From Lysobacter antibioticus (GTDB taxonomy: Bacteria; Pseudomonadota; Gammaproteobacteria; Xanthomonadales; Xanthomonadaceae), in contig NZ_CP013141.1 in the NCBI RefSeq assembly GCF_001442535.1, positions 1,550,105-1,614,104 on the forward strand: a DNA stretch of 64,000 nucleotides, in the 5' to 3' direction. Positions 19,687 through 29,120 of the stretch are shown in pieces. Every line of letters starts with the position of its first letter. Position 1 is the first letter of the stretch. The notes below the pieces were generated by a model, which did not search any database, was not told the origin of the DNA, and was given only the letters and a program-made list of their open reading frames with translations. A program made the position numbers and the translations under genes.

Positions 19687-19743
19687 GCGCAGGTAACGCG
19701 GTGCACAGGGCGGCCGTATCGCACAAGTGCAGTCGCCGCAGCC

Positions 19744-19860
19744 GTCATCCCCGCGCAGGCGGGGATCCAGGGTTTACCGCGACATCGCTCTGAAGTCTTT
19801 GGATCCCCGCCTTCGCGGGGATGACGGTTGGACGTTGGATTCACGCCTGCGCGGGGACGG
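19744..19860. repeat. Inverted pair of GTCATCCCCGC palindromic repeats
   Basis: gtcatccccgcgcaggcggggatcc (19744-19768) and its inverse ggatccccgccttcgcggggatgac (19801-19825), then a degenerate third copy (19841-19860). Each is itself a hairpin. This is the other dispersed palindrome type of the genome; a related single copy lies at 40444-40469. Confidence 0.75.
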
Positions 19861-19945: not shown

Positions 19946-22900
19946 ATGCCCGGAACGGACACCGGAGCACATGTGGAAGCCTTATTACTCGTCGTCGGCC
20001 TGATCGCCGGCCTGATTCTCGCGCGTCTTTATCGACCGCAGGCGGCGGTCGTCGCTGCGGCGGCGGATGCGCCGCGGGCGGATGCGGAAAACGCACCGGC
20101 CGTCGAGCAAATCCAAAACGAAGCCGAAGCACCGATTGAATCGACTTCGGAAACGGCCGAAGCACCAGAGGATCGATTACTTCGGTTGGTCCGTTCCATC
20201 GATGCGCTCGACGAACGCATCCAGCGCCCGCAGGACCTGCTTGCCCTGCCCGAATTCCACCAGGGCGTCGATCTGGTCGCGAGCGAAGCCTTCAACGCCG
20301 CCGACCTGGTGCGCCAGCTCAGCGGCACCGGCTACGTGCTGCAATCGATGATCACCAAGGCCCTGCCGCGACGCAGCGACGTCGCGCTCGACCCGGTGTT
20401 CGAACACGTCGGCCAGTTCGGCGGCTATCCCCTGCACTTCCTGATCGAGTACCTGCGCACCCGTCCCGACGCCGGCGACGTGCCCAAGCTGCTGCGCCAT
20501 GCCCAGCCGTGGTGGTGGGACTTCGCCCCGGTGCGCCAGCAACTGCGCGACTACCTGCAATGGGCCGAACAATTCGGCGCGGCGCCGGCCGCGCCGGTGC
20601 TGGACGAACTCGAGGAACACGCGGCCACGCAGTTGCGCGACACCCTCAAGCGGTTCCAGTCGCCGCTGCTGGAACCGCTGATCGAGCAGGCCGAACACGC
20701 CACCAATGCGCGCCGCGAAAGCCGCGTGCTCGGCGCCTTCGGCCGGGTCAACGCCAGCGCCAAGGCGCAGACGCGCATCGTCCACGACGCCCTCGCCCGC
20801 CAGCTCGAACGCCTGCATGAGCTGCTATCGGGCGACGATGCCGCCTCGGTGCTGGTCTCCGGCGAACACGGCGTCGGCAAGACCGTGCTGATCGACCTGC
20901 TGGCCGAGCGTCTGCAAGCCGAGGGCTGGCTGGTGTTCGAGGCCTCCGCGGCCGAGATCCTGTCCGGCCAGAGCTACATCGGCGAACTCGAAGAGCGGGT
21001 GCGCGAGATGCTCGGCGTGCTCAACCGCAAGCGCGCGGTGTGGCGCGCGCCGGAATTCTTCGACCTGCTCGCCAAGGGCTCGCACTCGCGCGACCCGCGC
21101 GGCCTGCTCGACCTGGTGCTGCCCGCGATCGAGCGCGGCCAGTTGCGGGTGATCGGCGAGATCACCCCGCGCCAACTGGCGCAGTTGCTGATCGCGCGTC
21201 CGGTCATCAAGCACCACGTCGAAATCGTGCAACTGCTGCCGACCGAAACCGATGCGCTGGAAGCGATCGCCGCCGAGTGGGCGCGCTTGGAAGGCGAGCG
21301 CCTCGGCCGCCCGGTCGCCGACGCGCGCGCCCTGGCCGAAGGCGCGCGCATGGCCGCCCAGTATTTCCCGGAGCAGCAGGAACCCGGCCGTCTGCTGCGC
21401 CTGCTCAACGACGCGCTGCAGAGCGCGCTGGCGGAAACTTCGCCGGCGCTGCCGCTCGACCCCGAACGTCTGCTCGCGACCATCGCCCAGCGCAGCGGCT
21501 TGCCGCTCGACGTCATCGACGACCGCCAGAGCCTCGACCTCGACCGCCTGCGCGCCTTTTTCCGCCAGCGCGTGATCGGCCAGGACGAAGCCGTCGACGC
21601 CCTGCTCGATCGCATCGCCATGCTCAAGGCCGGCCTGATCGACAGCAGTCGGCCGATCGGCGTGTTCCTGTTCGCCGGCCCCACCGGCACCGGCAAGACC
21701 GAGCTGGCGAAGGCGCTCGGCGAGCTCTTGTTCGGCAGCGACGAACGCCTGCTGCGCCTGGACATGAGCGAGTTCCAGTCGGAGGACTCGGCCTGGCGCC
21801 TGACCGCCGACGAAGGCGGCCAGAGCGGCGTGCGTTCGCTGACCTCGCGCATCCGCGAGCAGCCGTTCTCGGTGGTGTTGCTGGACGAGTTCGAGAAGGC
21901 CCATCCGAAAGTCTGGGACCTGTTCCTGCAGGTGTTCGACGATGCGCGCCTGAGCGACCGCAGCGGTCACACCGCCGATTTCCGCCACAGCATCATCATC
22001 CTGACCAGCAACGTCGGCTCGACCATCTCGCGCAGCGCCGGCCCGGGTTTCACCTCGGCGCGCGGCGGCTATTCGCGCGACGCGGTCGAGAAGGCGCTGT
22101 TCGAGACCTTCCGCCGCGAGTTCCTCAACCGCCTCGATCGGATCGTGCTGTTCAATCCGCTCGACCGCAGCCTGATGCGCGAGATCCTGCACAAGGAACT
22201 CAAGCGCGTGCTGACCCGGCGCGGCCTGCGCAACCGCGACTGGGCGGTGGAATGGGAGCCCTCGGCGATCGAGTTCCTGCTCGACCGCGGCTTCACCCCA
22301 GACCTCGGCGCGCGGCCGCTGCGCCGCGCGATCGAGCATTACCTGTTGGCGCCGCTGGCGCGCAGCATCGTCGAGCACCGCGCGCCGCAGGGCGACCAAT
22401 TTCTGTTCGTGCGCAGCGCCGGCGACCAGCTCGAGGTGCAGTTCATCGATCCCGACGCGTCGCGGCGCAACGACGGCGCCGCGGCCGAAGTCGTCGCGCC
22501 CGCCGACGCCGGCGATCTGCGCGACCTGGTGCATGCGCCATCGGCGGCGGCTGCGGCGGTGGCGCGGCTCGATGCGCGGCTGCAACAGCTCGACCAGACC
22601 GTGAGCGCGCAGGATTGGGTCTCGGCGCGCGAAGCCGATTACGCACGCATGGCCGAGGCCGATTTCTGGAACGCGGGCGACCGCCATCCGGTGCTCGACC
22701 GCATCGAGCGCCGCGACCGCATCGAGAGCGCGCTGGATACCGCCCAGCGCATGCGCCAGCGGCTGCGCGAGGACGGCGGCAACGACGAATTCGCCGGCCG
22801 CATCGCCCAGTTGCTGTTCCTGCTCGGCCTGGCGGTCGACGCCGTGCGCGAACAACGCCCGCAGGACGCCTTGATCGAAATCGATACCGACGAGGCCGCG

Positions 22901-23323
22901 CACCTGCGCCACGGCCCCGACCTGCGCCTGTGGTGGCAGCGTCTGCTGGCGATGTATCTGGCCTGGGCCCAGCGTCGCAACATGCGCGTCGAAGTGCTGC
23001 GCCAGGACGCCGAGCGCTGCAAGGCCTGGCTGGCGGTGAGCGGCTTCGGCGCCTTCGACCTGCTGCAGGCCGAGTCCGGCCTGCACGTGCTCGAAGACCA
23101 GGAAGACGGCGTCACCCGCCGGGTTTCGCTGTCGGTGCAGGTCGCGCCGGACTTGCCGGGACGCGCGCGCGTCGCCCAGGCCGCGGCCGAAGGCGAGCGG
23201 CGCATCAGCCGGCGTTACCGCGAGTCGCCCTCGCCGCTGGTCCGCGACGGCGTGCGCGGCTGGCGCAGCGGCCGCCTCGACCGCGTGCTCGGCGGCGAGT
23301 TCGACGTGATGCAGGGCGGCTGA
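19946..23323 (+). CDS. Membrane-anchored ClpB-like double AAA+ ATPase with C-terminal release-factor-like region
   Basis: 1125 residues. A transmembrane helix (about 10-28) and an acidic linker lead to a helical region (75-290). AAA-1 has Walker A SGEHGVGKT (305-313) and a pore tyrosine in GQSYIGELEERV, but the Walker B position reads KRAVWRAPEFF, without the D-E pair. AAA-2 has Walker A GPTGTGKT (578-585), Walker B VVLLDEFEKAH (643-653), sensor 1 LTSNVG, arginine finger in REFLNRLDRIV and sensor 2 GARPLRRAIE. The ClpB GYVG pore loop of AAA-2 is missing. Residues about 890-1125 resemble RF2: DFWNAGDRHPVLDRI, a PCRF-like core (WWQRLLAMYLAWAQRRNMRVEVL, ESGLHVLE...RRVSLSVQVAP) and an RF2-like tail (YRESPSPLVRDGVRGW), but the GGQ domain is absent. 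Function unknown. Confidence 0.85.
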   Translation: MPGTDTGAHVEALLLVVGLIAGLILARLYRPQAAVVAAAADAPRADAENAPAVEQIQNEAEAPIESTSETAEAPEDRLLRLVRSIDALDERIQRPQDLLALPEFHQGVDLVASEAFNAADLVRQLSGTGYVLQSMITKALPRRSDVALDPVFEHVGQFGGYPLHFLIEYLRTRPDAGDVPKLLRHAQPWWWDFAPVRQQLRDYLQWAEQFGAAPAAPVLDELEEHAATQLRDTLKRFQSPLLEPLIEQAEHATNARRESRVLGAFGRVNASAKAQTRIVHDALARQLERLHELLSGDDAASVLVSGEHGVGKTVLIDLLAERLQAEGWLVFEASAAEILSGQSYIGELEERVREMLGVLNRKRAVWRAPEFFDLLAKGSHSRDPRGLLDLVLPAIERGQLRVIGEITPRQLAQLLIARPVIKHHVEIVQLLPTETDALEAIAAEWARLEGERLGRPVADARALAEGARMAAQYFPEQQEPGRLLRLLNDALQSALAETSPALPLDPERLLATIAQRSGLPLDVIDDRQSLDLDRLRAFFRQRVIGQDEAVDALLDRIAMLKAGLIDSSRPIGVFLFAGPTGTGKTELAKALGELLFGSDERLLRLDMSEFQSEDSAWRLTADEGGQSGVRSLTSRIREQPFSVVLLDEFEKAHPKVWDLFLQVFDDARLSDRSGHTADFRHSIIILTSNVGSTISRSAGPGFTSARGGYSRDAVEKALFETFRREFLNRLDRIVLFNPLDRSLMREILHKELKRVLTRRGLRNRDWAVEWEPSAIEFLLDRGFTPDLGARPLRRAIEHYLLAPLARSIVEHRAPQGDQFLFVRSAGDQLEVQFIDPDASRRNDGAAAEVVAPADAGDLRDLVHAPSAAAAAVARLDARLQQLDQTVSAQDWVSAREADYARMAEADFWNAGDRHPVLDRIERRDRIESALDTAQRMRQRLREDGGNDEFAGRIAQLLFLLGLAVDAVREQRPQDALIEIDTDEAAHLRHGPDLRLWWQRLLAMYLAWAQRRNMRVEVLRQDAERCKAWLAVSGFGAFDLLQAESGLHVLEDQEDGVTRRVSLSVQVAPDLPGRARVAQAAAEGERRISRRYRESPSPLVRDGVRGWRSGRLDRVLGGEFDVMQGG

Positions 23324-27580: not shown

Positions 27581-29120
27581 ATGGCCCCCAGCCCCTCACG
27601 CGGCAGCCATCTGCTGACCGAAGGTCCGATCGGACGCACGATGATCGGCTTCGCCTTGCCGATCATGGCCGGCAATGCCGCGCAGTCGCTCAACGGTTCG
27701 ATCAACTCGATCTGGGTCGGCCGCTATCTCGGCGAAGCCGCGCTCACCGCGACCGCGAACGCCAACAACATCATGTTCTTCCTGATCGGTTCGATCTTCG
27801 GCATCGGCATGGCCGCGACGATCCTGATCGGCCAGGCGATCGGCGCCAAGGACACGGCGCGCGCGCGCCGGGTCATGGGCACCAGCGCGACCTTCTTCAT
27901 CGGCTTGTCGGCGCTGATCGCCGCGGCCGGTTGGTTCATGGCCGATCCGGTGTTGCGCGCGATGGGCACGCCCGCGGCGGCACTGCCGTTGGCCGAGGAC
28001 TACCTGCGGGTGATCTTCCTGTCGATGCCGTTCCTGTACGCCTTCGCCTTCATCTCCGCGGCCCTGCGCGGCGCCGGCGATTCGCGCACGCCGTTCCGCT
28101 TCCTGTTGATGGCGGTGGTGCTCGACATCGCCTTCAACCCCTTGCTGATCTTCGGCTGGGGGCCGATCCCCGCGCTCGGCATCGCCGGCTCGGCGGCCTC
28201 GACTTTCTTCGCCCAGGGCCTGGGCCTGACGGCGATGCTGCTGTACTTGCGGCGCAAGCGCCACGTGCTCTGGCTCGGACGCCAGGACGCGCACCTGCTC
28301 AAGATCGACCCGACCGTGCTGCGCGCGCTGATCGTCAAGGGCGTGCCGATGGGTCTGCAGATGGTGCTGATCTCGTTGGCGATGATCGCGATGATCAGCC
28401 TGGTCAACGCCCACGGCACCGGCACCGCCGCCGGCTACGGCGCCGCGCTGCAGTTGTGGACCTATGTGCAGATGCCGGCGATGGCGATCGGCGTGTTCGT
28501 CGATCGCCGCGCAAAGCGTCGGCGCCGGGCGCTGGGACCGGGTCGACGCGACCGCGCGCACCGGCACCGGTTTCAATTTCCTCATGACCGGCGCATTGAT
28601 CGTGCCGCTGATTCTGTTCGACCGTTACACCCTGGCGCTGTTCCTGCCGGAAGGCAGCGCATCGTTCGAGATCGCGCGCCATCTCAACCACATCGCGATC
28701 TGGTCGTTCCTGTTCTTCGGCGTGACCTTCGTGATTTCCGGCGTGGTCCGCGCGACCGGCGCGGTGGTGCCGCCGCTGTTGATCCTCGGTTTCGCGCTGT
28801 GGGGCATCCGCGTGCCGTTCGCGACCTTGCTGCAACCGGTGATCGGCACCGATGCGCTGTGGTGGAGTTTTCCGGTCAGCGCGCTGTGCTCGATGCTGAT
28901 GTCGATGGCCTACTACCGCTGGGGCGGCTGGCGACGTTCGCGGATGATGGCCGCGCCCGAACGCGTCGTCGCGCCGATCGCCACCCGGACCATCGCCACG
29001 CCGGCCGAAATCGCCGCGCCGCCGCCGGCGCCGGTGGCCGATGCCAGCCCAGAAGAGAGCGACGAGATCGTGGCGATGGCCGATGCCGGGACGGACTTGC
29101 CCGAGCGCCCTGCGCGCTGA
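27581..29120 (+). pseudogene. MATE-family multidrug exporter, single-base frameshift
   Basis: Na+- or H+-coupled drug exporter of the inner membrane. The frame from ATG 27581 encodes MATE sequence with many membrane helices up to MPAMAIGV (about residue 307), then turns into arginine-rich nonsense. The +1 frame picks up immediately with IAAQSVGAGRWDRVDATARTG and continues as MATE to 29120. Removing one T from the pair at 28496-28497 joins them as GVSSIAAQSVGAG, the normal family sequence. Intact length would be about 512 residues, with an unusual proline/alanine-rich acidic C-terminal tail after residue 470. A real mutation or a sequencing error: the sequence cannot say. Confidence 0.85.

Follow-up and report, generated by a model that had tools for sequence, protein, structure and literature searches.

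What does a relative of release factor 2 (RF2) do at the end of a Clp-type ATPase when its catalytic domain is gone? This question is raised by a gene at 19946..23323 (+) in a 64,000-nucleotide stretch of the Lysobacter antibioticus genome (contig NZ_CP013141.1), here called the window. The frame is open throughout and encodes 1125 aa from the ATG at 19946, from which residues are numbered throughout. The domain order is a hydrophobic helix, an all-helical domain without a Pfam family, AAA+ D1, AAA+ D2 with a D2-small domain, a flexible linker, and an RF2-derived module. The initial annotation of this DNA had described one 1125-residue frame with two AAA+ modules and an RF2-like C-terminus, and the Pfam domains bear out this architecture. 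Sequence and structure model together show that a Clp/HSP100-class AAA+ protein is joined to a relative of RF2; this relative has neither the catalytic domain nor the codon-reading motifs, but it keeps the predicted RF2 fold.

The RF2-derived module

The module (aa 866-1125; 22541..23320, +) was characterized by profile, structure model and tree. It matched PF03462 (PCRF) at 32.4 bits against a cut-off of 24 (E 1e-7) and the RF2 profile at 2.9e-16. The model superposes on RF2 domains 1, 2 and 4, whose predicted fold is kept. These results confirm the kinship to RF2 that had first been proposed for the C-terminus. The N-terminal part of the module is a domain-1-like helical bundle (aa 867-968; 22544..22849, +), where the RF2 'D.WN' start is present as ADFWN; W908 is the counterpart of RF2 W46. 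The domain-2-like alpha/beta core (aa 975-1068; 22868..23149, +) lacks the GGTE tip, SPF and HTS. By alignment to RF2, a linker (aa 1070-1086; 23153..23203, +) replaces the GGQ domain. The arginine-rich domain-4-like tail (aa 1087-1120; 23204..23305, +) has the form RRYR..PSPLVRD.VRGWRSGRLDRVL.GEFD.

Motifs and columns were counted in 26 fusion modules and 13 RF2s. In RF2, A-site reading or peptide release depends on SPF, HTS, the GWGxQ switch and GGQ. SPF and HTS were each present in 13/13 RF2s and in 0/26 modules. The GWGxQ switch and GGQ were likewise found in 0/26 modules, and the GGQ domain was skipped in the hhalign alignment, which upholds the earlier claim that the catalytic domain had been removed. 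The regular expression AGxGG[TD]E matched just 7/13 RF2s, so column counts were used in its place. Fifteen strongly conserved positions are common to the module and RF2, and 43 RF2-conserved positions are lost. Another 15 positions are newly conserved in the module; seven of them are Arg, five of those in the tail. The mean net charge of the tail is +3.0 in the module versus -1.5 in RF2, and the ranges do not overlap. Because the shared positions remain while SPF, HTS, GWGxQ and GGQ are gone, the predicted RF2 fold was kept and the reading and releasing motifs were removed. The loss of the A-site reading elements makes codon-guided A-site binding by the module unlikely. The initial annotation had suggested a 'ribosome- or RF-docking unfoldase', which is supported in part; any docking on the ribosome would probably not be guided by codons.

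Compared with RF2 (prfB), the fusion protein shares domains 1, 2 and 4, the 15 conserved positions and an RF2-type tail. It differs in the absence of the GGQ domain, SPF, HTS, the GGTE tip and the switch loop, in the attached Clp motor, and in the basic character of the tail. A classical RF2 with a frameshifted GGQ part was rejected, since the frame is uninterrupted and 26 rows carry the linker in one and the same position. In a 48-row tree, the modules grouped together as a separate clade (100/100) that, with midpoint rooting, was distinct from both RF1 and RF2; because long branches come together there, the module is not placeable as sister to RF2 alone. The linker before the RRYR tail is longer and often Ala/Leu-rich in the members at L056, L059, L060, L062, L063 and L064, all outside Xanthomonadales. 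There it is possibly a remnant of the last GGQ-domain helix.

The AAA+ motor and the N-terminal region

The two AAA+ domains with a D2-small domain place the protein among the Clp/HSP100 proteins. Motor residues were counted in 76 aligned family rows, and ClpA and ClpB of the same genome, named from their sequences, were used for comparison. D1 (about aa 281-517; 20786..21496, +) keeps Walker A and the pore-loop Tyr344 and has lost the Walker B Asp and the arginine finger. The Walker B Asp was present in 0/76 rows, with D/E at the next position in 74/76; the arginine finger (RR) was present in 0/76, and the pore-loop aromatic in 74/76. D2 (about aa 530-835; 21533..22450, +) has its catalytic residues: K584, T585 (T or S), D647, E648, N689, R729 and R790 were each found in 76/76 rows. 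The GYVG pore loop, which ClpA and ClpB of the same genome have, was found in D2 in 0/76 rows; in the window protein the matching segment is 3 residues shorter than in that ClpA and ClpB and has no GYVG-like motif. Judged from these residues, the motor is remodelled, with a catalytically degenerate D1 and a D2 that has the checked catalytic residues but no GYVG. The name unfoldase is therefore uncertain, as the D2 catalytic residues and the D1 pore aromatic speak for it and the losses in both domains speak against it.

In the alignment, the triplet P700-G701-F702 (22043..22051, +) falls on the same genome's ClpA IGF loop, the ClpP-docking loop. G701 and F702 were present in 76/76 rows, and position 700 was P in 67, I/L/V/M in 8 and A in 1. 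The protein shares with ClpA, ClpC and ClpB (HSP100) the two AAA+ domains, the D2-small domain, the D2 catalytic residues, and a GF pair where the same genome's ClpA has IGF. It differs from them in the degenerate D1, the missing GYVG and Clp_N match, the hydrophobic N-terminal helix and the RF2 module. The aligned ranges suggest that, unlike this class, it has no middle domain.

The N-terminal hydrophobic helix (aa 7-28; 19964..20029, +) has a Kyte-Doolittle 19-residue mean of 2.36, and the model predicts a helix over the same residues. It is probably a membrane anchor. Of the N-terminal membrane helix described at first, the hydrophobic helix was found again and the anchoring role is probable only. 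Arg lies on the C-terminal side of the helix; under the positive-inside rule, Arg at this side points to an N-out/C-in orientation. The helix is seemingly missing in L056 (Eisenbacteria) and L061 (Solirubrobacter), so tethering may not be universal. An all-helical domain in the model (aa 74-265; 20165..20740, +) takes the position where other Clp proteins carry Clp_N. Residues 1-275 matched no Pfam family at E 0.1, hence not Clp_N. The coding sequence most likely begins at a GTG (19973..23323, +; 1116 aa), because the first aligned residue in the family alignment is 10 and a GGAG (19964-19967) lies just upstream of this codon. Upstream of the ATG at 19946, no GGAG-type motif was seen.

Candidate functions

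We propose, with the arguments for and against about evenly balanced, that the protein is a tethered Clp-class ATPase in which a scaffold exapted from RF2 serves to dock a partner, either RNA-rich or a protein. The protein would sit in the inner membrane by its anchor, its main part on the cytosolic side, and it would assemble into a two-tier ring, as in other Clp proteins. D1 would bind ATP and help in assembly, and D2 would be the sole hydrolysing ring. The RF2-derived module, on the flexible linker after D2, would capture the target. Candidate partners are rRNA or the surface of the ribosome, mRNA, or a protein recognizing the RF2 core; the arginine-rich tail, which is new in the module, hints at a partner that is acidic or rich in RNA. 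ATP turnover in D2 would then pull on or remodel the captured partner, possibly with ClpP via the GF loop. Stop codons should not be read, and peptide release by the GGQ mechanism would be impossible.

Several observations weigh against this proposal. Without a pore loop in D2, ordinary threading is less likely. Position 700 is Pro in the window protein and in most rows, unlike the consensus of ClpP-docking loops, I/L/V-G-F/L. Within the full-length model (pTM 0.52), D2 is the folded part that is predicted least well (pLDDT means over 10 residues of 39-78), and 13/76 rows were chosen by requiring GPTGTGKTE and a length above 850 aa, so that the count for D2 Walker A is biased. The N-terminal stretch was below the Kyte-Doolittle threshold in 8/76 rows: L060 and L021, with starts extended by script; L063, which starts at a contig end; L062, marginally below; and L056, L061, P0045 and P0051. 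Precomputed PF03462 was present in 92/120 listed proteins of a C-terminal-region search and in none of the other 28, which means that some family members have a weak PCRF signature. A positive tail by itself is no demonstration of RNA binding.

A ribosome-docking quality-control machine is possible, and we regard it as doubtful. The module would bind membrane ribosomes, at a stalled or vacant A site or at another site, and the motor would extract the nascent chain or split the complex, perhaps feeding ClpP, much as Vms1 and Cdc48 work in eukaryotes. The retained fold of RF2 domains 1, 2 and 4, the N-terminal helix together with the invariant GF pair, and the basic tail are consistent with this. 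The accessible text of PMC6514570 describes the RF-like factor Vms1 and its interaction with the AAA+ protein Cdc48. That the fusion is a membrane-tethered single-polypeptide quality-control machine, in which the RF2 mimic, devoid of codon reading and hydrolysis, guides the Clp motor with ClpP to ribosome- or RNA-bound targets, so that several phyla of bacteria would have their own version of the Vms1-Cdc48 principle, is a speculative and rather improbable idea.

It is also conceivable, if unlikely, that the AAA+ part has ceased to be a translocase and serves as a nucleotide-driven membrane switch or scaffold, with the RF2 module as a structural or oligomerisation element. The absence of the D2 GYVG, the D1 Walker B Asp and the D1 arginine finger in all 76 rows fits such a role, but the invariant checked D2 catalytic residues and GF pair and the nearly invariant D1 pore aromatic do not. 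We consider it improbable that the module is an RF2-mimic decoy or regulator that binds an RF2 partner for the motor to sequester or degrade. PrmC, RF3 and ArfA-type factors are such partners, and the retained domain 2 core agrees with binding of this kind; however, the GGQ domain, which is PrmC's substrate, is missing, and no PrmC, RF3 or ArfA-type gene was among the identified neighbours. A spurious coiled-coil PCRF match or a misassembled gene is scarcely credible, and the spurious match was rejected, since the lone Pfam match at 1e-7 is modest but profile, structure and tail evidence concur and the same architecture recurs in many independent assemblies.

Distribution, neighbourhood and significance

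All counts of spread are lower bounds from sampled genomes. Full-length members were present in at least 20/60 relatives: 17/20 in the genus (own genome included), 1/16 in the rest of the family and 2/24 in the rest of the order. The fusion module was found in at least 10/200 sampled genomes of the order. The phylum sample gave at least 3/398 genomes at E <= 1e-15, all three in the same order. Further counts were at least 7/247 genomes in the phylum of L062 (Thermoanaerobaculia, Acidobacteriota) at E below 1e-60, at least 10/80 in the group of L064 (including the genomes of L059 and L064), at least 9/199 in the phylum of L060 (Planctomycetota), and at least 2/149 in the class of L061 (Thermoleophilia, Actinomycetota), one as a 296-aa frame only. 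The fusion is patchy and rare outside Lysobacter. The 33 module loci include Lysobacter, Xanthomonas, Pseudoxanthomonas, Luteimonas, Tahibacter, Rudaea and Solirubrobacter, and also metagenome-assembled genomes of Eisenbacteria, Latescibacterota, Planctomycetota, Thermoanaerobaculia, Thermoleophilia and Krumholzibacteriota, among others. The nearest named module match, 97% identical, is from L. antibioticus. The C-terminal-region search returned 554 matches, with AAA domains in all 120 listed.

A tblastn search with the window's module against 50,697 phage records and 72,556 plasmid records gave 0 matches, and 20 pattern stretches in viral contigs included 0 relatives; a phage or plasmid gene was therefore rejected. 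A defence gene was also rejected, as each of the 8 PADLOC hits was on AAA parts. A short-protein search for stand-alone GGQ-less RF2 modules gave 59 matches; many of these are named ClpC, lie on 1-3 kb contigs and are probably fragments. P0158, P0170, P0180 and P0181 (238, 205, 173 and 180 aa) are mainly RF2 module and lie on long contigs, and G961 (L122) has the module in a 296-aa frame; these may be genuine stand-alone modules or else the product of split genes or frameshifts. Adjacent Clp-like AAA+ genes of about 830-1060 aa were observed in a different family of the order (L028:7072-13223 and L029:7149-15579). They are 34-38% identical to the motor relatives in L021 and L022, and PCRF was not among the matches listed for three scanned proteins.

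The gene lies between mutS (upstream) and katG (downstream) in 6/6 mapped loci of the genus and in one locus from elsewhere in the family. The L021 and L022 loci gave 0 matches to the 13 window neighbours used as queries. A Pfam scan of part of the neighbours of distant members found unrelated kinds or no match for 8 further neighbours. An operon partner was rejected because the mutS/katG flanks were seen in near relatives, the neighbours differ at L021 and L022, and the distant scanned neighbours are unrelated. A REP-like inverted repeat (CGTCATCCCCGCGCAGGCGGGGATCC ... GGATCCCCGCCTTCGCGGGGATGACG) lies at window 19743-19827, between mutS and the gene. A MATE-type transporter gene at window 27581-29120 is apparently split in two frames (27581 onward; 28464-29120), which seems to be a frameshift or sequencing error.

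Two known systems resemble parts of the fusion, and neither is related to it as a whole. According to the accessible text of PMC3555233, PrfB3 of plant chloroplasts is an RF2 paralogue that has lost the stop-codon and hydrolysis motifs and become an RNA-binding, RNA-stabilising protein of the stroma; that text mentions no AAA+ motor for it. Vms1-Cdc48 likewise ties an RF-like factor to an AAA+ chaperone, according to the accessible text of PMC6514570. It differs in that it consists of two separate proteins, has an RF of another superfamily (aeRF-1) and keeps a peptidyl-hydrolase domain. PMC6514570, a survey of how release factors evolved, mentions AAA 5 times and PCRF, ClpB and Lysobacter 0 times. 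In the accessible part of PMC5581361, the one paper found to contain both 'PCRF domain' and 'AAA', the two terms stand in separate table rows, not as a fusion. No published description of an RF2 module fused to an ATPase motor was found in searches of the open-licence PMC library, in line with the earlier remark that no function was described for this architecture. Members carry automatic-looking names ('AAA family ATPase', 'ClpC', 'PCRF domain-containing protein'), so the fusion is hidden in databases.

The fusion is not a local oddity, as it recurs in distant phyla. It shows which parts of RF2 are dispensable while the fold persists, and it hints that evolution turned an old translation factor into a handle for attachment. 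It also opens to direct testing the idea that, in bacteria, AAA+ remodelling at the membrane is coupled to mimicry of translation factors.
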